57,952 nt of DNA, from positions 1-57,952 of the forward strand of contig CAIYZC010000484.1 in NCBI GenBank assembly GCA_903930565.1. The letters run 5' to 3'. Position numbers and translations under genes: made by a program. Positions 8,567 to 15,614 of the stretch are shown in pieces. Position 1 is the stretch's first letter; every line of letters starts with the position of its first letter. Origin of the DNA: an uncultured Pedosphaera sp. (GTDB lineage Bacteria; Verrucomicrobiota; Verrucomicrobiia; Limisphaerales; Pedosphaeraceae). The notes below the pieces were generated by a model, which was given only the letters and a program-made list of their open reading frames with translations, had not been told where the DNA came from and did no database searches.

Positions 8567-9964
8567 ATGGCTGAGCGCAATGATTCCACGGAGTCCGAAC
8601 CACCCGCCGGCGCCGGTGAGGCCGCGGGCATTTCCCTGCTCACCGCGCTGCGGGAACGGCGTTCGCGGCGCTTTTGCCGGGGGATGACCCTGCCGGGCGG
8701 GCCGCTGGCCCACGCGAGCCGGCACGCCCCCGCGCCTTTGACCGAAGCGGAGGAGGCGCTGCTGGCGTATGCGGCTTGTGGGATCACCGGGCCGGCGCTG
8801 GCCGATCTCCACCACACCGCCGAGGGGGGCGGCAACATTTTGGCGGGCTTGGTGGGGCGGACGGTCGCGAGCGGGGACGCCCTGCAAACGGTGGGACTGG
8901 TGGTCATCAATGACACCGGCACGCACCTGGTTCGGCGGCCGCGGGAATTGCCGGCGGCGGCGCTCCCTGAAATCATCGAGTTGGGCCAACGGGGGGCGTT
9001 CACGGAAGCCTACCGGCGTCAGCGGGTGCGGCTCGCGCCGGGCCGGAGCGCGCCCCCGGTCGCGCCGTTGTTCAATATCAACGCGAACGCCTGGGCGGCG
9101 CACGCCGCGGGCACCTCCTATTTTCTGCCGGTGAACGAGCTCACGTTCATGTATCTCAACGGCCTCTTGGAGATTCTCAACGAGCACACCGGGGTGTTCA
9201 TTCTGGATGAACGCAATTGGTTTCAGCCGGCCGGACTGGCCCGTTTCGCACGCTCGCGGGGCGGGCATCTGGAGGACAACCCCCACCGCGGCCGGGTGGT
9301 GACCATCCGCCAGGTGGAACAGTTTGTCTCCGAATTCGTCACCGTGGAACAGGGCATGATGCTGCAAAACCTGGGCTTGATGGCGGAGGCGCTGGGGCTG
9401 GCGGGCTACCCCAATTTCGCCAACCACGAGTTTGGTTGGTTCCAAGCCCTCGGCTTCCGCATGGGGGAAATGCCCGCGAGCCGTTACGTGGGGGCCGGTT
9501 GGTTGCCGCGGTGGGCCATGCGCCTGTTGCGGCGCGATCCCGTCGTCCCGTATCCCCTTGGTTTGGAGCGGGACGGGGAGGTGCTGCTGAAACCGTTCGC
9601 CCCGCCGTACTATCCGTCCATGACGGCGGCGGTGCGGGCCGTGGCGGCCTTGAAGTTTGGTCCGGAAGGAGTGTTCCGCGGCGGGTCCGCGGGCGGCGCT
9701 TGGTTGCAGCCCGGGGCGGTGACCGGCGCCATTCCGGCCGTGAGCGAACGCACGATTGCGGCGGTGTGCGCTTATGTGGAGTACGTGTGGGGGCGGTACG
9801 GCCGGTTCCCGGTCCACCTGCCGGCCTTTCGCACCGTGCTCGGCTTCCAAGTCGGCCACGTGGATGCCGAGTTCTACGACCGGTTCTACCGGCCGGAGGC
9901 CTTGAGCGAACGGCAGCGGCGGGATTTCGCACGGTCCGCGGGCGCGCCCGGCGTCGCTGTTTGA
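8567..9964 (+). CDS. Conserved protein of unknown function
   Basis: The frame is open from 8297, inside the glycosyltransferase, but the ATG at 8567 starts the conserved-looking part and gives 465 residues. It begins with an acidic tail, then LTALRERRSRRFCRGM; the RRS-RRF pattern resembles the phosphate-binding start of nitroreductases, but I cannot confirm that fold. Strong motifs in the middle are LFNINANAWAAHAAGTSYF, ILDERNWFQPAG and EQGMMLQNLGLMAEALGL. Near the end stands FRTVLGFQVGHVDAEFYDRF. No signal peptide or membrane segment is seen. It lies 92 bp after the glycosyltransferase and ends 7 bp before the convergent anti-sigma gene. Function unknown; a cytoplasmic, possibly flavin- or metal-dependent enzyme is only a guess. 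Confidence 0.75.
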   Translation: MAERNDSTESEPPAGAGEAAGISLLTALRERRSRRFCRGMTLPGGPLAHASRHAPAPLTEAEEALLAYAACGITGPALADLHHTAEGGGNILAGLVGRTVASGDALQTVGLVVINDTGTHLVRRPRELPAAALPEIIELGQRGAFTEAYRRQRVRLAPGRSAPPVAPLFNINANAWAAHAAGTSYFLPVNELTFMYLNGLLEILNEHTGVFILDERNWFQPAGLARFARSRGGHLEDNPHRGRVVTIRQVEQFVSEFVTVEQGMMLQNLGLMAEALGLAGYPNFANHEFGWFQALGFRMGEMPASRYVGAGWLPRWAMRLLRRDPVVPYPLGLERDGEVLLKPFAPPYYPSMTAAVRAVAALKFGPEGVFRGGSAGGAWLQPGAVTGAIPAVSERTIAAVCAYVEYVWGRYGRFPVHLPAFRTVLGFQVGHVDAEFYDRFYRPEALSERQRRDFARSAGAPGVAV

Positions 9965-9971
9965 GCCGGGT

Positions 9972-10583
9972 TCAGGCCCGGGCGAAGGCCACCAAGGGAT
10001 CCTGGGTGGTGAGCACGGCCAACAGGGTGCAGCCGGCCACCGAATAGTTTTCCGGGTGGTGCGAGCCGCCGTCCGCGTGATGAAAATCGCCCGCGTTCAA
10101 CGGCCGGTCGCCGACCACCAGATCGCCGGTGAGAATGTAAAACTCCTCGGGGCCGGCGTTGATGTGGGCGGGGTAACGGGCGCCGGCGTCCAGTTTGCCG
10201 AGGAGCACGGCGTATCCGCGCTCCTCATCCAGCGTGAGGAGTTTCAGGTAGGCGCCGGGAATCGGCAGGGCTTTCCAGCCGGCGTCGCCCGCGGCGGGCA
10301 CGAAGCTGAGGCCGGGCAGCGCGATGCGCGGCGGCAGTGGCAGGGCGGGGGCGGCGGTGAGCGCGTCAATGCGGGCCATGACCTTGCCCTTCAAACCCGG
10401 CGGCAAAGGCCGGGCGGGAGCCAGGGCCGGTGCGGCCGTCGCCACGGCGGATTCGAGACCACGGACGAATTCGCCAAGTTCGGGCCGGGCGGCCATGGCC
10501 GCGGCGAAGGCCGCCGCTTCCGCCGGGGCCAGCGCCCCGGCCGCATACAGGGCCGCCAGTTCTTGTTCCGCTTCCACAATCAT
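9972..10583 (-). CDS. ChrR-like cupin anti-sigma factor
   Basis: The product has 203 residues. The N-terminus (about 1-80) is a helical domain of the anti-sigma type (AALYAAGALAPAEAAAF, then a P-x-L-K-x-K-V-x-x-R-I-D-like helix near 80-95). A cupin domain occupies about residues 105-195, with PAHINAGPEEFYILTGD followed by AGDFHHADGGSHHPENYS. The zinc-binding HXXXCXXC motif of classical ZAS anti-sigma factors is absent from the N-terminus, so any signal sensing probably lies in the His-rich cupin. The start codon overlaps the stop of the ECF gene by four bases (ATGA), the usual coupling of a sigma factor and its cognate anti-sigma. It is predicted to hold that sigma factor inactive in the cytoplasm until a redox or metal signal arrives. 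Confidence 0.85.
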   Translation of the reverse strand: MIVEAEQELAALYAAGALAPAEAAAFAAAMAARPELGEFVRGLESAVATAAPALAPARPLPPGLKGKVMARIDALTAAPALPLPPRIALPGLSFVPAAGDAGWKALPIPGAYLKLLTLDEERGYAVLLGKLDAGARYPAHINAGPEEFYILTGDLVVGDRPLNAGDFHHADGGSHHPENYSVAGCTLLAVLTTQDPLVAFARA

Positions 10584-11152
10584 AGCAATTGCTCCAATCC
10601 CGCCCGCAGTTTCAACATTCCCCGGCGCACCCGTGCCTTGATGGTACCCAGCGGCTCATTGAGGGCCGCGGCAATTTCCTGGTGCGTGAGCCCGTCGAAG
10701 AAGGCCAGTTCAATGGCCCGCCTTTGGTCGCCGGGCAGTTCGCGCACCGCGTTCTGCACCACGACGCCGTCCGGGCCGGACCAGGTCGTGGGCGCCGCGC
10801 TCTCGGGGGCCGCGGCCGCTTCCCATTCCGGCGTTTCCAAATTTTCCACGATCACCCGCGCCCGCCGTTGCCGGGCCCGCAGTCGGTCCAGGCACAGGTT
10901 CCGCGCCAGGGCCAGCGCCCAATGGAAGGCCCGCCCTTTCGCCGGATCAAACTTGTCGGCTTTGGTCCAAATCTGCACAAAAGCATCCTGGATGACCTCC
11001 TCCGCCTCGCCTTCGTTGCCGAGCATGCGGCAGGCGATTGCGAACAACGGCCGCGCCGTCTGGTCGTAAAATTCGCCAAAGGCGTCCCGGTCCCGCGCCG
11101 CAATGCGGCGCAGTAAGTCGGCTTGGATTTCAGCAGGGGCGTCCGGCATCAT
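10580..11152 (-). CDS. ECF RNA polymerase sigma factor
   Basis: The 190-residue protein has sigma region 2 at about 15-90 (FGEFYDQTARPLFAIACRML, then EAEEVIQDAFVQIW) and region 4 at about 130-185 (LPGDQRRAIELAFFDGLTHQEIA, ending GTIKARVRRGMLKLR). A frame-closing stop just upstream leaves ATG-ATG at 11152/11149 as the only start choices. It is coupled to the ChrR-like anti-sigma gene. A candidate ECF promoter lies at 11363-11390 on the same strand, which implies autoregulation through a leader of about 200 nt. The same site, pointing the other way, precedes the DUF4331 operon, so this sigma factor is the best candidate activator of that operon. Confidence 0.92.
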   Translation of the reverse strand: MMPDAPAEIQADLLRRIAARDRDAFGEFYDQTARPLFAIACRMLGNEGEAEEVIQDAFVQIWTKADKFDPAKGRAFHWALALARNLCLDRLRARQRRARVIVENLETPEWEAAAAPESAAPTTWSGPDGVVVQNAVRELPGDQRRAIELAFFDGLTHQEIAAALNEPLGTIKARVRRGMLKLRAGLEQLL

Positions 11153-11362
11153 GCAGTTTCGACGGGGATCCGCTCACGATCGGCGGGGCCCGGCGTCGGG
11201 CGCACCGTGGCACACCCGGCGCCCCGACCGCAACGACTTTTTCGCCGCTCCGGCCGGCGTGCCCGGGCGCGCCGGTCCACCGGTCGGCGGCCGACGCTCA
11301 CCGTCGCCGCCGCACTCCCGGGACCGCTCGCAAACTGGATGGGCACGCTGGTCATCACTCAT

Positions 11363-11390
11363 TGAACGCCGTCGCCGGGGCTTTGGATGC
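11363..11390 (-). promoter_or_regulatory. Candidate ECF-type promoter for the sigma/anti-sigma operon
   Basis: On the minus strand the -35 GCATCC (11390-11385, continuing AAA) is followed by a 16-bp spacer and CGTTCA (11368-11363). The site shares GCATCCAAA and CGTT at identical spacing with the plus-strand site at 11447-11474. A CGT-type -10 element is typical for ECF sigma factors. Confidence 0.7.
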
Positions 11391-11446
11391 CCGAAAAGGA
11401 AAATATCCTTCGGCGGCCTCCGCCCGCCGAAAAAAATCGCGGGGAT

Positions 11447-11474
11447 GCATCCAAACGCCGGGCCCCGGCGTTGA
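11447..11474 (+). promoter_or_regulatory. Candidate ECF-type promoter for the DUF4331-TPR-HupE operon
   Basis: The -35 GCATCC (11447-11452, continuing AAA), a 16-bp spacer and the -10 CGTTGA (11469-11474) end 31 bp before the DUF4331 start codon. The match to the divergent minus-strand site is GCATCCAAA-N13-CGTT, 13 of 13 defined positions with exact spacing. Confidence 0.75.
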
Positions 11475-11505: not shown

Positions 11506-13140
11506 ATGAAAACCATGCAACGCAAACATTTCCTCAAACCCTTCCCCCTGGCCGCCCTGCTCGCGGCCTGCACCCTCACCGGATTCCCCGCCGCGGCCTC
11601 GAGTCATCGCGAGGCGCCCCTCATCACCGGCACGCCGAAACTGGACGGCGCCGACTTTTACGCCTTCAACAGTTACGAACCCGGCCGCCAGGATTTTGTG
11701 ACGTTTGTGGCGGACTACCTCCCACTGCAGGACGCCTACGGGGGTCCCAACTATTTCAAATTGGACACCAACGGGATTTATGAAATCCACATCGACAACA
11801 ACGGGGACGGCCGGGAGGACATCACCTTTCAATTCCAATTCTTCGAGGCGGCGCGCCACATCGCGCTGCCCATCGGCCCCGCGGGGAACCGGGTCACCAA
11901 TGAAATTCCCCTCGTGATCGCGGGGCAGATCACGCCCGGCAACAACGCCGCGCTGAACGTGGTCGAGAATTACACGGTGAAAATGATCACCGGCAACCGG
12001 CGCAGCGGTCCGGCGGTCTACCTGACCAATGCGGCCAATGGCACGACCCTGTTCACCAAGCCGGTGGACAACATCGGCAACAAAACGCTGCCCGACTACA
12101 ATGGCTACGCCAGTAACTATATTTACAGTGTGAACATCCCCGGCTGCGCCACGCCGGGCCGGCTGTTCGTCGGGCAGCGCAAGGATCCATTTGTGGTCAA
12201 TTTGGGCGAGACCTTCGATCTCATCAACTTCAGCAACCCCCTCGGACCGGTGGACGGCGGGAAAAACACGCTCGCGGACAAAAATGTCACCTCCCTGATC
12301 CTGGAAGTCCCCAAGGTCTGCCTGACCAACGGGTCCCCCGTGATCGGCACTTGGACAACCGCCAGCCAATTGCTGGGCGGCAACTACGTCCAAGTGTCGC
12401 GCCTCGGCCAGCCGCTGGTCAACGAGGTGGTGATCGGCTTGAAGGACAAGGACACGTTCAATGCCAGCGAGCCCAAGGACGACGGCCAGTTCGCCGCTTA
12501 CGTCACCAATCCCACCCTGCCCGCCCTCATCGAAATCCTCTTTGGCAGCGCCGGGGTGGTCGCGCCGACGAACTTCCCGCGGCAGGACCTCGTCACCGTC
12601 TTCCTCACCGGCATCCCCGGCTTGAACCAAACCACCGCGGTGGCCGAACTGCTCCGCTTGAACACCAGCACCCCGGCGGTCGCGCCCGGGGCGCAGAACA
12701 ATTTGGGCGTGATCGGCGGCGATGTCGCCGGGTTCCCCAACGGCCGCCGGCCGGGTGACGACGTCGTCGACATCGCGTTGCGCGTGGTCATGGGCAAACT
12801 CCTCTCCGCCAACGACGCGCCCTCCGGCCAATTGCCGTTCACCGATGGGGCCTTGGTGAATGCCGGGATGTTTAAACCGGCGTTTCCGTATCTCAACCCG
12901 CCCATCCCGGGTTCCCCCAACGATTTGAGCGTCACGATCACGCTCCAGAGCAGCCCGGGTGTCCGCGGTCCGTACGCGAACACCGCGGCCAAATACAACG
13001 CCGCCACCGCCACCTTGTCGGCCGCTCCGCCGACGGGCAACACGGCGTTCTACCGCACCGTGGGTGACACCGCCGGGGTAAAGTTGGGGTCGCCCCAAGT
13101 GACCGGTTCCAACGTGCTCATCAGTGTGCAGGTTCCCTGA
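11506..13140 (+). CDS. DUF4331 family exported protein
   Basis: The 544-residue protein has a signal peptide (about 1-31, ending FPAAA) followed directly by SSHREAPLITGTPKLDGAD, the hallmark opening of DUF4331. Further family features are DFYAFNSYEP, a VTFVADYLPLQDAYGGPNYF stretch and IDNNGDGREDITFQFQF. The last 60 residues (LQSSPGVRGPY... to LISVQVP) depart from the family and recall the tail of other exported proteins in this window. The biochemical role of DUF4331 is not established. It is the first gene of a probable operon with the TPR and HupE-like genes and lies 31 bp after a candidate ECF promoter. I used the ATG at 11506; a second in-frame ATG at 11515 is possible. Confidence 0.9.
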   Translation: MKTMQRKHFLKPFPLAALLAACTLTGFPAAASSHREAPLITGTPKLDGADFYAFNSYEPGRQDFVTFVADYLPLQDAYGGPNYFKLDTNGIYEIHIDNNGDGREDITFQFQFFEAARHIALPIGPAGNRVTNEIPLVIAGQITPGNNAALNVVENYTVKMITGNRRSGPAVYLTNAANGTTLFTKPVDNIGNKTLPDYNGYASNYIYSVNIPGCATPGRLFVGQRKDPFVVNLGETFDLINFSNPLGPVDGGKNTLADKNVTSLILEVPKVCLTNGSPVIGTWTTASQLLGGNYVQVSRLGQPLVNEVVIGLKDKDTFNASEPKDDGQFAAYVTNPTLPALIEILFGSAGVVAPTNFPRQDLVTVFLTGIPGLNQTTAVAELLRLNTSTPAVAPGAQNNLGVIGGDVAGFPNGRRPGDDVVDIALRVVMGKLLSANDAPSGQLPFTDGALVNAGMFKPAFPYLNPPIPGSPNDLSVTITLQSSPGVRGPYANTAAKYNAATATLSAAPPTGNTAFYRTVGDTAGVKLGSPQVTGSNVLISVQVP

Positions 13141-13260: not shown

Positions 13261-14466
13261 ATGAAAGCCATCCTTGCCCTCGCCGGTCTCGCCGCCTGCT
13301 GCTGGTGGGCCGCGCCGGTCCTCGCCGCGCCGGGGACGGCGGGCGCGGCCTACCTGCCCCGCACGGGGGATCAAGTGCTGGAAACCTTGCGCGCCACCCC
13401 GGGCGATCCGGCGGTGCGTGAACTGCGCGCGTGGCAGGCGAAGCGCGCCGCGGAGCCGACCAATGTGCTCGTGGCCTGCGAAGTCGCCCGGCGTTGCGTG
13501 GAGCGCAGCCGCCACGACGCGGATCCCCGGTATCTGGGGCGGGCGCAGGCGGCGCTGGCCCCCTGGTGGGACGCGCCCGCCGCGCCCGTGGAGGTCCTGA
13601 TCCTGCGGGCGACCTTGCGCCAGAGTCAGCATGATTTTATTCGCGCCCTGGCCGATTTGGACCTGGCGGCGGGGCTGGCCCCGCGGAACCCGCAAGTGTG
13701 GTTGACCCGCGTGACCATTCTCACGTTGCAGGGGGAATACGCCGCGGCGCGCCGGGCCTGCGGTCCGCTGGCGCAATTGGCGCCGGGCTTGATCTCCCTC
13801 ACCGCCGCGTCCGGGATCGCCACGTTGAATGGCGACGCCGAGCGCGCTTGCGCCCGGTTGCGTGGCGCGCTGGCCGGGGCGGGGACGGCCGGCGCCGGGG
13901 AACGGGTTTGGGCGCTCACGGTGCTGGCCGAGGCCGAGACCCGGACCGGGCGGTTTGCGGCGGCGGAGGCGGATTTTCAGCGGGCCCTCAATCTGGCGCC
14001 CCGCGATCCCTACCTGCTCGGGGCCTACGCGGATTTGTTGTTGGATTTGGGCCGCCCCCGCGAGGCGGTCCAGTTGATCGGCGCGGAACCGCGGGCCGAT
14101 GGGCTCCTGTTGCGTCTCGCCATCGCTGAAGCCGCCCTCACGCCGCCCCCGGCGACGTTTGTGGCGCACGCGGCCGCCCTCCGGGCGCGGTTTGAAGCCG
14201 GTCGTTTGCGCGGGGATTTCGTCCACCAACGCGAGGAGGCGCGTTATCTGCTGGAAGTGGCCGGCGACCCCCGGGCGGCGTTACCCGTGGCGCGGGCGAA
14301 TTGGGACGTGCAGCGCGAACCCGCCGACGCGCGCCTGCTGCTCGCCGCCGCCCGCGGGGCGGGAGACCCCGCCGCCGCCGCCCCGGTGCTGGATTTCGTG
14401 CGCACCAACCGGCTGGAAGACACTGTCCTGGCGCGCTGGGCCGGCCAACTCTCCCCGAACCAATGA
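13261..14466 (+). CDS. Exported TPR-like protein
   Basis: The start is the ATG at 13261, opening MKAILALAGLAACCWWAAPVLAA, a signal peptide; a TTG at 13252 in frame is less likely. The 401-residue product is alpha-helical and Ala-rich, with TPR-like pairs such as ALADLDLAAGLAPRNPQVWL (about 125-145) and RFAAAEADFQRALNLAPRDP (about 235-255). It probably serves as a periplasmic scaffold. It follows DUF4331 by 120 bp and its stop overlaps the start of the HupE-like gene (ATGA), so translation of the two is coupled. That DUF4331, TPR and HupE/UreJ-like proteins occur together elsewhere is my recollection, not a search result. Confidence 0.85.
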   Translation: MKAILALAGLAACCWWAAPVLAAPGTAGAAYLPRTGDQVLETLRATPGDPAVRELRAWQAKRAAEPTNVLVACEVARRCVERSRHDADPRYLGRAQAALAPWWDAPAAPVEVLILRATLRQSQHDFIRALADLDLAAGLAPRNPQVWLTRVTILTLQGEYAAARRACGPLAQLAPGLISLTAASGIATLNGDAERACARLRGALAGAGTAGAGERVWALTVLAEAETRTGRFAAAEADFQRALNLAPRDPYLLGAYADLLLDLGRPREAVQLIGAEPRADGLLLRLAIAEAALTPPPATFVAHAAALRARFEAGRLRGDFVHQREEARYLLEVAGDPRAALPVARANWDVQREPADARLLLAAARGAGDPAAAAPVLDFVRTNRLEDTVLARWAGQLSPNQ

Positions 14467-15614
14467 AAGCCTTCTCCCCGCTCTTTCGCCGCCTCGGCGG
14501 CCTGCTCCTCGGCGCGCTCCTGCTGCCGTTTGCGGCCGGCGCCCACACTCAGAGCAGCGCCTTGCTGACGGTGTCCGCCAGCGCCGTCGGCGTCACCGGC
14601 GAGTGGCACCTGGCGTTGCGCGATCTGGAGGATGCCGTCGGTTTGGACGCCGACGATGATGGCCGGATCACTTGGGAGGAACTGCGGGCGCGGCGGGCCG
14701 CCGTGACCGCCTACGCGCAGTCGCGGCTGCACTGGCGTGCGGACGGAAATCCCGTGGCGTGGCGGGTCACGGACTATTTGGTGGCGGACCACCCGGATGG
14801 CGCCTACGCGGTCCTCCGCTTTGCCGTGGACGGCACGGCGGGCGCCGGTCGCCTGGCGATCGATTACACCGCGTTGTTCGACTTGGATCCGAAGCACCGC
14901 GGCATACTCCATTGGGAGCAGGACGGGCGGAGTCAAATCGCCGTCCTGAGCCCCGGCGACGGCGTCCGCGAGTTCACCCTGGGGCGGCCCGCGTCGCCGG
15001 CGTCGGTCGGCGTGTTCCTGGAGGAGGGCATCCACCATATCTGGACCGGCTACGACCACCTCCTGTTCTTGCTGGCGCTGCTGCTGCCGGGCGTGTTGGC
15101 CTGGCAGGCGGGGGAAGGTTGGCGGGCGCTCCCCAGTTCCCGGGCCGCCGGCCTGGGCGTCGTCAAAGTGGTCACCGCGTTCACCCTGGCCCATTCGCTC
15201 ACCCTTGGTTTGGCGGCCATGGGCTGGGTGCGGTTGCCCGTGCGGTGGACCGAAGCCGCCATCGCCGCGTCGGTGATCGTGGCGGCCGCCAACAATTTCC
15301 GGCCGTTCTTCACGGAGAGTGGTTGGCGCGTTGCCTTTGGGTTTGGTTTGCTGCACGGGTTCGGCTTCGCCAGCGGGTTGCATGATCTCGGTTTGCGGCC
15401 CGGCCAACTCGCCGGCGCTTTGCTTGGTTTTAATGTCGGGGTCGAAATCGGCCAATTGGCCATCGTGGCCCTCTTTCTCCCCCTGGCGCTGCTCGTGCGG
15501 CATCGCGCCCTTTACCAACAACTGGGCCTCCATGCCGGTTCCGGGGTCATCATCGCGGTCGCCACGGTTTGGTTTGCCGAGCGCGTGGGCGATTTTAAGT
15601 GGCTGCCCTTCTAA
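14463..15614 (+). CDS. HupE/UreJ-family membrane protein with an EF-hand-like loop
   Basis: The frame is open from 14301 but the ATG at 14463 overlaps the TPR stop and starts a signal-like sequence, giving 383 residues. The N-terminal half is periplasmic and contains DADDDGRITWEEL (about 59-71), a calcium-type EF-hand loop. The C-terminal half has about six or seven membrane helices with the family motifs GIHHIWTGYDHLLFLLAL, AFTLAHSLTLGLA, LLHGFGFASGL and GFNVGVEIGQL. His and Asp residues in such motifs are thought to carry nickel or cobalt in HupE/UreJ permeases; the metal here is not shown. Predicted last gene of the ECF-controlled operon. Confidence 0.88.
   Translation: MKAFSPLFRRLGGLLLGALLLPFAAGAHTQSSALLTVSASAVGVTGEWHLALRDLEDAVGLDADDDGRITWEELRARRAAVTAYAQSRLHWRADGNPVAWRVTDYLVADHPDGAYAVLRFAVDGTAGAGRLAIDYTALFDLDPKHRGILHWEQDGRSQIAVLSPGDGVREFTLGRPASPASVGVFLEEGIHHIWTGYDHLLFLLALLLPGVLAWQAGEGWRALPSSRAAGLGVVKVVTAFTLAHSLTLGLAAMGWVRLPVRWTEAAIAASVIVAAANNFRPFFTESGWRVAFGFGLLHGFGFASGLHDLGLRPGQLAGALLGFNVGVEIGQLAIVALFLPLALLVRHRALYQQLGLHAGSGVIIAVATVWFAERVGDFKWLPF

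Follow-up and report, generated by a model that had tools for sequence, protein, structure and literature searches.

The window analysed here, 57,952 nt of DNA from an uncultured Pedosphaera sp., carries two matching promoter-like sequences between a gene for an ECF sigma factor and a divergently oriented operon for a DUF4331 protein, a TPR protein and a HupE/UreJ-type membrane protein. A sequence-only reading of this DNA had proposed that both are promoters of the adjacent sigma factor, one driving its own gene and the other the DUF4331 operon. We asked whether the two sites are indeed promoters, which sigma factor would read them, and what the switch would control. We consider it very probable that both are promoters of the local sigma factor and form a self-amplifying switch with DUF4331-TPR-HupE as its conserved output, because the promoter code recurs ahead of the corresponding genes both in relatives and in other phyla.

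Two outward-facing sites

The pattern GCATCCAAA-N13-CGTT occurs exactly twice in the window, and the copies point away from each other as described in the sequence-only reading, each being an instance of GCATCC-N16-CGTT (Table 1). The outer ends given there, 11363 and 11474, are those of the sites plus two flanking bases (CA and GA, respectively), and the 31 bp counted to the DUF4331 ATG at 11506 is correct from 11474; from the end of the site itself (11472) the distance is 33 bp. The leader from the minus-strand site to the sigma ATG at 11152 is about 200 nt. This site fell in a 148-codon reading frame, judged to be spurious, that lies between the sigma and DUF4331 genes and reaches into the former. 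The sigma leader (window 11153-11364) folds only slightly better than its shuffles (z -1.7), and a search of the intergenic region against Rfam gave no match. At about 200 nt the leader is unusually long, most relatives having about 80-180 nt.

Table 1. Genes and sequence elements of the sigma-DUF4331 locus (window coordinates).
Feature	Position	Strand	Remarks
Nitroreductase-like gene	8567-9964	+	Weak SagB similarity; converges on the anti-sigma gene
Anti-sigma factor, 203 aa	9972-10583	-	C-terminal ChrR-type cupin (Cupin_7)
ECF sigma factor, 190 aa, SigK-like	10580-11152	-	Sigma70_r2 and Sigma70_r4_2 domains
Putative ECF-type promoter, sigma/anti-sigma operon	11365-11390	-	GCATCC-N16-CGTT = GCATCCAAAGCCCCGGCGACGGCGTT; -35 at 11390-11385, -10 at 11368-11365
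Inverted repeat TTCGGCGG-N7-CCGCCGAA	11409-11431		Between both putative promoters; unique in the genome
Putative ECF-type promoter, DUF4331-TPR-HupE operon	11447-11472	+	(T)GCATCC-N16-CGTT = GCATCCAAACGCCGGGCCCCGGCGTT
DUF4331 protein, 544 aa, predicted secreted	11506-13140	+	Signal peptide ends PAAA before SSHREAP
TPR protein with signal peptide, operon gene 2	13264-14466	+	Synteny in relatives
HupE/UreJ_2 membrane protein, operon gene 3	14463-15614	+	Synteny in relatives

None of 100 dinucleotide shuffles of the window contained two matches (mean 0.01). Across the 6.6-Mb genome (870 contigs) the only exact copies of GCATCCAAA-N13-CGTT are the two in the window, with 0.09 expected from base composition; this was checked against all GCATCC-N15..17-CGTT matches genome-wide, among which only these two start with GCATCCAAA. 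Chance is therefore a poor explanation, even before relatives are consulted. The looser pattern GCATCCR-N15-CGTW gave 25 matches in the home genome and 7 when reversed as a control. The genome-wide scan that the sequence-only reading had named as a check left the two reported sites as the sole intergenic, correctly placed matches, all others lying within ORFs except for one that has no downstream gene. Since nearly all of the looser matches are intragenic, the home regulon probably comprises just the two operons flanking the sites.

Conservation of the putative promoter code within the order

DUF4331 orthologues were gathered from 293 genomes and their neighbourhoods examined in correctly oriented loci. 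Comparison with these relatives bore out the proposal, in that GCATCC-N16/17-CGT(T/A) lies upstream of 31 of the 36 DUF4331 genes from the same order, against an average of 0.08 matches in shuffled upstream sequences; the remaining 5 regions are without it. The spacing is N16 in 28 cases and N17 in 3, and other spacings from 8 to 25 gave 0-3 matches each. Both the T preceding GCATCC (96%) and the purine following it (100%) are conserved, though neither is imposed by the search pattern. The sequence-only reading had counted the AAA after GCATCC among its shared defined positions. What is conserved in relatives is GCATCC, CGT(T/A), the 16-bp spacing and the T, whereas the AAA proved to be a mere preference (A or G, then mostly A); the invariant core, as judged from these alignments, is GCATCC...CGT(T/A), with AAA excluded.

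The motif is also found within 300 bp upstream of 14 of 22 sigma genes, in every one at 16 bp. The strict motif is absent from this interval in the other 8, and several of the sigma genes most closely related to that of the window (L238, L239, L241 and L247) lack it within 420 bp. Thus, autoregulation is not universal among relatives. Whether the sigma gene is divergent, downstream or on another contig, the motif precedes most copies, and a sigma gene located elsewhere in the genome usually has its own motif about 110-180 bp before its start. Outward-facing pairs of sites were seen in at least 10 further loci; at divergent sigma/DUF4331 loci the pair often recurs, with the starts of the -35 boxes 44 to 227 bp apart. 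In a genome of the same genus (G143) both sites are kept and the rest of the intergenic DNA is barely alignable. A further DUF4331 copy in that genome (L062, 75% identical) lies close to an end of contig C14, adjoins another sigma/cupin pair and is without the strict motif. Searching six related genomes with TGCATCCR-N15-CGTW gave 24 matches, compared with 3 for controls, and the same genes were often the ones marked.

The distribution of the sigma factor follows that of its presumed target: it was found in 32 of the 33 genomes that have a DUF4331 orthologue and in 37 of the 260 that have none (Fisher p = 2e-22, an indicative figure that ignores the kinship of the genomes). In a sample drawn from across the phylum, the other 240 genomes gave no DUF4331 match at E<=1e-60. 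Another possibility is that the sites are promoters read by a different sigma factor of the genome and that the local one is not their activator. Relatives do have several sigma factors of the family sharing one promoter code, the sigma gene is not adjacent to DUF4331 in some genomes, and the code also serves a second, RskA-type sigma in certain relatives, where cross-recognition may occur. The home genome, however, yielded a single close member of the family (at E<=1e-25), the sigma factor both co-occurs with and adjoins DUF4331, and the motif follows the sigma gene to other locations, so we regard this explanation as unlikely.

We give still less weight to the idea that GCATCCAA is a -10 element, that the promoters start further upstream and that CGTT is incidental. 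ECF29 promoters have GGGAAC as the -35 element and a -10 element that is literally GCATCCAA, as documented for RpoE8 of Sinorhizobium meliloti (PMC6180224). Yet GGRAAC is present in the 30 bp upstream of 0 of 88 sites, conserved columns do not extend upstream beyond the flanking T, the AA is variable, and CGT(T/A) is fixed 16 bp downstream; the ECF29 reading was rejected on these grounds. That the sites are an operator repeat for an unrelated DNA-binding regulator, and no promoters at all, is scarcely credible: the plus-strand spacer ACGCCGGGCCCCGGCGT is near-palindromic and an inverted repeat lies between the sites, but relatives conserve the length of the spacer and not its sequence, the inverted repeat is unique to the window locus, and two boxes at fixed spacing and oriented toward a gene are the pattern of an ECF promoter. 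The inverted repeat itself could be a promoter insulator or an operator.

The same code in other phyla and at further targets

A scan of named genomes yielded 80 DUF4331 loci, 51 of them outside Verrucomicrobiota. The variant TG[C/A]ATC[C/T]-N16-CGT[A/T] is located upstream of 38 of these 51, and none of the 51 has it at spacings of 11-15 or 17-21 (shuffles averaged 0.22). Duganella, Massilia and their relatives have GAATCC (or GAATCT) at the aligned position of GCATCC, and Undibacterium, Collimonas and Gammaproteobacteria have GCATCC itself. The gene order DUF4331-TPR-HupE is largely preserved across phyla.

The motif was also observed at other genes. It precedes nitroreductase-like genes in four loci (L077, L219, L248 and L263), an FMN reductase gene in L064, and another TPR-lipoprotein operon, adjacent to DUF4331 paralogues. 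A search ahead of the nitroreductase-like gene in the window found no promoter motif, although orthologues in relatives have it. The DUF4331 paralogues (ca. 33% identity) had been chosen as a negative control and were dropped from that role, several of their operons having the motif before the TPR lipoprotein gene; judged by this motif, the operons are further targets rather than controls. At two loci with RskA-type pairs (L173 and L257), the motif lies upstream of fasciclin and ferritin-like genes, a set reminiscent of the mycobacterial SigK regulon. The fasciclin-domain proteins MPT70 and MPT83 are SigK targets in Mycobacterium tuberculosis. A fasciclin gene is likewise part of the RpoE regulon in Rhodobacter sphaeroides (PMC7074977).

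A SigK-like sigma factor with apparently exchangeable sensors

The sigma factor has sigma2 and sigma4 domains only and is co-encoded with its anti-sigma factor, whose ATG overlaps the sigma stop codon; it is thus an ECF sigma factor by architecture. Among solved structures it scores best with SigK (4nqw, 100 bits, compared with 75 bits for R. sphaeroides RpoE, 2q1z), and its best NCBIfam match is the SigK model PRK09646 at 146 bits, below the cut-off of 226. The pair had been labelled ECF/ChrR-like from sequence. The ChrR label holds for the C-terminal cupin of the anti-sigma factor (PF12973, E 5e-13, 49.2 bits against a cut-off of 27), but not for its N-terminal domain, in which the HxxxCxxC zinc motif is not present; the sigma factor is nearer SigK than RpoE.

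In ChrR, the zinc ligands of the anti-sigma domain (ASD) are His6, His31, Cys35 and Cys38, and the cupin ligands are His141, His143, Glu147 and His177 (PMC6852236). The ASD ligands are absent from the window anti-sigma factor and from all aligned Verrucomicrobiota orthologues, so release presumably cannot depend on an ASD zinc site. At the cupin positions most orthologues have H, H, E, H, and the window and three near relatives have H, N, E, H; the cupin site of the window clade may therefore be altered or bind something else. A cysteine pair equivalent to Cys133/Cys183 occurs in 94% of ECF18 members and 56% of ECF19 members (PMC7509140). The window sigma factor lacks this redox pair, Cys41 and Cys87 being its only cysteines.

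Not all members of the sigma family are paired with a cupin. RskA_C anti-sigma factors are encoded in L066 and L245 and, outside the phylum, in L173; the L066 protein is assigned by Pfam, and that of L067 has similar features. At loci such as L066 and L067, the sigma family, promoter and operon are those of the window, but the anti-sigma factor is transmembrane. In a quick sigma tree, many of whose forks are weak, cupin-type and RskA-type sigma factors are interleaved as neighbouring clades, a pattern suggesting that sensors were swapped and the promoter code was kept. In L066, L067, L245 and L249, which share the sigma family and promoter code, the RskA-type transmembrane anti-sigma factor takes the place of a cupin protein. 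Gammaproteobacterial partners (L123, L128, L142, L145 and L151) are short cupins of about 155 aa, which leaves little room for an anti-sigma domain.

Relation to known systems

An autoregulated ECF/anti-sigma pair with an adjacent target is a classical arrangement that is already known. RpoE-ChrR (ECF11), from R. sphaeroides and Pseudomonas syringae (PSPTO_1043/1042), likewise co-encodes a sigma factor with a Cupin_7 anti-sigma factor and is autoregulated, as proposed for the window locus. The experimentally derived ECF11 consensus is TGATCC-N16-CGTA (PMC5507510), which has the same 16-bp spacer, a CGTA-type -10 element and a -35 element ending in ATCC; GCATCC-N16-CGT(T/A) differs from it in the 5' half of the -35 element. 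The window system further departs from RpoE-ChrR in its SigK-like sigma factor, in an anti-sigma factor without the ASD zinc ligands and with the H-to-N change in the cupin, and in its target, DUF4331-TPR-HupE.

SigK-RskA of M. tuberculosis (ECF19; ECF18/ECF19 neighbourhood) provides the best structure and NCBIfam matches of the sigma factor, and relatives of the window with the same promoter code have RskA_C anti-sigma factors and motif-preceded fasciclin genes. The window differs from it in having a soluble cupin anti-sigma factor, no redox cysteine pair and a score below the NCBIfam SigK cut-off. The window system lacks defining features of both ECF11-ChrR and SigK-RskA and does not qualify as a member of either. 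A third parallel is the singlet-oxygen-induced SigK/RskA-like pair of Rhodobacter capsulatus, named rpoE-chrR (PMC7074977), in which a SigK-like sigma factor does a job like that of RpoE-ChrR, albeit in a photosynthetic alphaproteobacterium and with different neighbours.

In the open literature searched, no paper came up under the name DUF4331 and no description of this ECF group by its -35 sequence was found, although classifications or promoter predictions beyond that literature may list the group. Neither the regulon around DUF4331 nor the swap of sensors appears to have been described there.

A model for the proposed switch

We infer autoregulation and dependence on the local sigma factor from the conserved sites, and recognition of the sites by this sigma factor and its inhibition by the adjacent protein are assumed in what follows. 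The anti-sigma factor would probably keep the sigma factor bound until it is itself altered by a ligand, a metal or an oxidant. Once freed, the sigma factor and RNA polymerase would transcribe leftward into the sigma/anti-sigma operon, giving positive feedback together with renewed inhibitor, and rightward into DUF4331-TPR-HupE, which would be induced and is probably the entire output in the home genome. By analogy with ChrR, the signal is most likely an oxidant, a metal or a small ligand sensed by the cupin. The fasciclin targets and the SigK/RskA-like singlet-oxygen pair of R. capsulatus make an oxidative or metal-linked signal plausible.

A broader proposal, which we put forward as tentative, is that the locus belongs to a multi-phylum regulon in which SigK-type ECF sigma factors read one code, TG[C/A]ATCC-N16-CGT[A/T], under interchangeable sensors (cytoplasmic cupin or transmembrane RskA). 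Its constant output would be DUF4331, secreted and carrying an ATCUN-type Cu/Ni site (SSH) at its N-terminus, along with a TPR protein and a permease of the HupE/UreJ type, all acting in envelope metal handling.

DUF4331 is widespread, and through the conserved promoter it is linked with one particular sigma family in several phyla; this shows experimenters how to induce it and what to measure. One promoter code and one output under two unrelated sensor types would amount to a natural exchange of ECF sensors. The cupin anti-sigma factor must, moreover, function without the zinc site thought to be central to ChrR.

The DUF4331 protein as the proposed output

SSHREAP (DUF4331 residues 32-38, window 11599-11619) directly follows the predicted signal-peptidase site and is invariant in about 97 DUF4331 sequences from several phyla, behind a variable hydrophobic leader; the underlying set of 100 rows includes two for other proteins, and some of its loci duplicate one genome. 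By a simple rule, the -3/-1 residues before SSHREAP are compatible with signal peptidase I in nearly every sequence. If cleaved at this point, the mature protein would begin Ser-Ser-His, a possible ATCUN-type Cu(II)/Ni(II) site. This candidate N-terminus and the HupE/UreJ-family membrane protein suggest that the operon may have a role in envelope metal handling; a response to oxidative damage of the envelope may be an alternative role. The HupE/UreJ protein has an EF-hand-like loop, DADDDGRITWEE, near its N-terminus (window 14640-14680).

No solved sequence relative of DUF4331 was found. The mature core is modelled with good confidence (pTM 0.89), apart from a few loops and residues 1-14, which include SSHREAP. 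Foldseek searches with both DUF4331 models returned nothing below E 0.001, and the best VIA-align hit (Z 7.5), a starch adherence protein aligned over 205 residues at an rmsd of 5.0, was uninformative. The C-terminal domain of about 70 residues (474-544, window 12925-13137) also weakly matches large proteins of the order that are otherwise unrelated, and is perhaps a shared sorting or anchoring domain.
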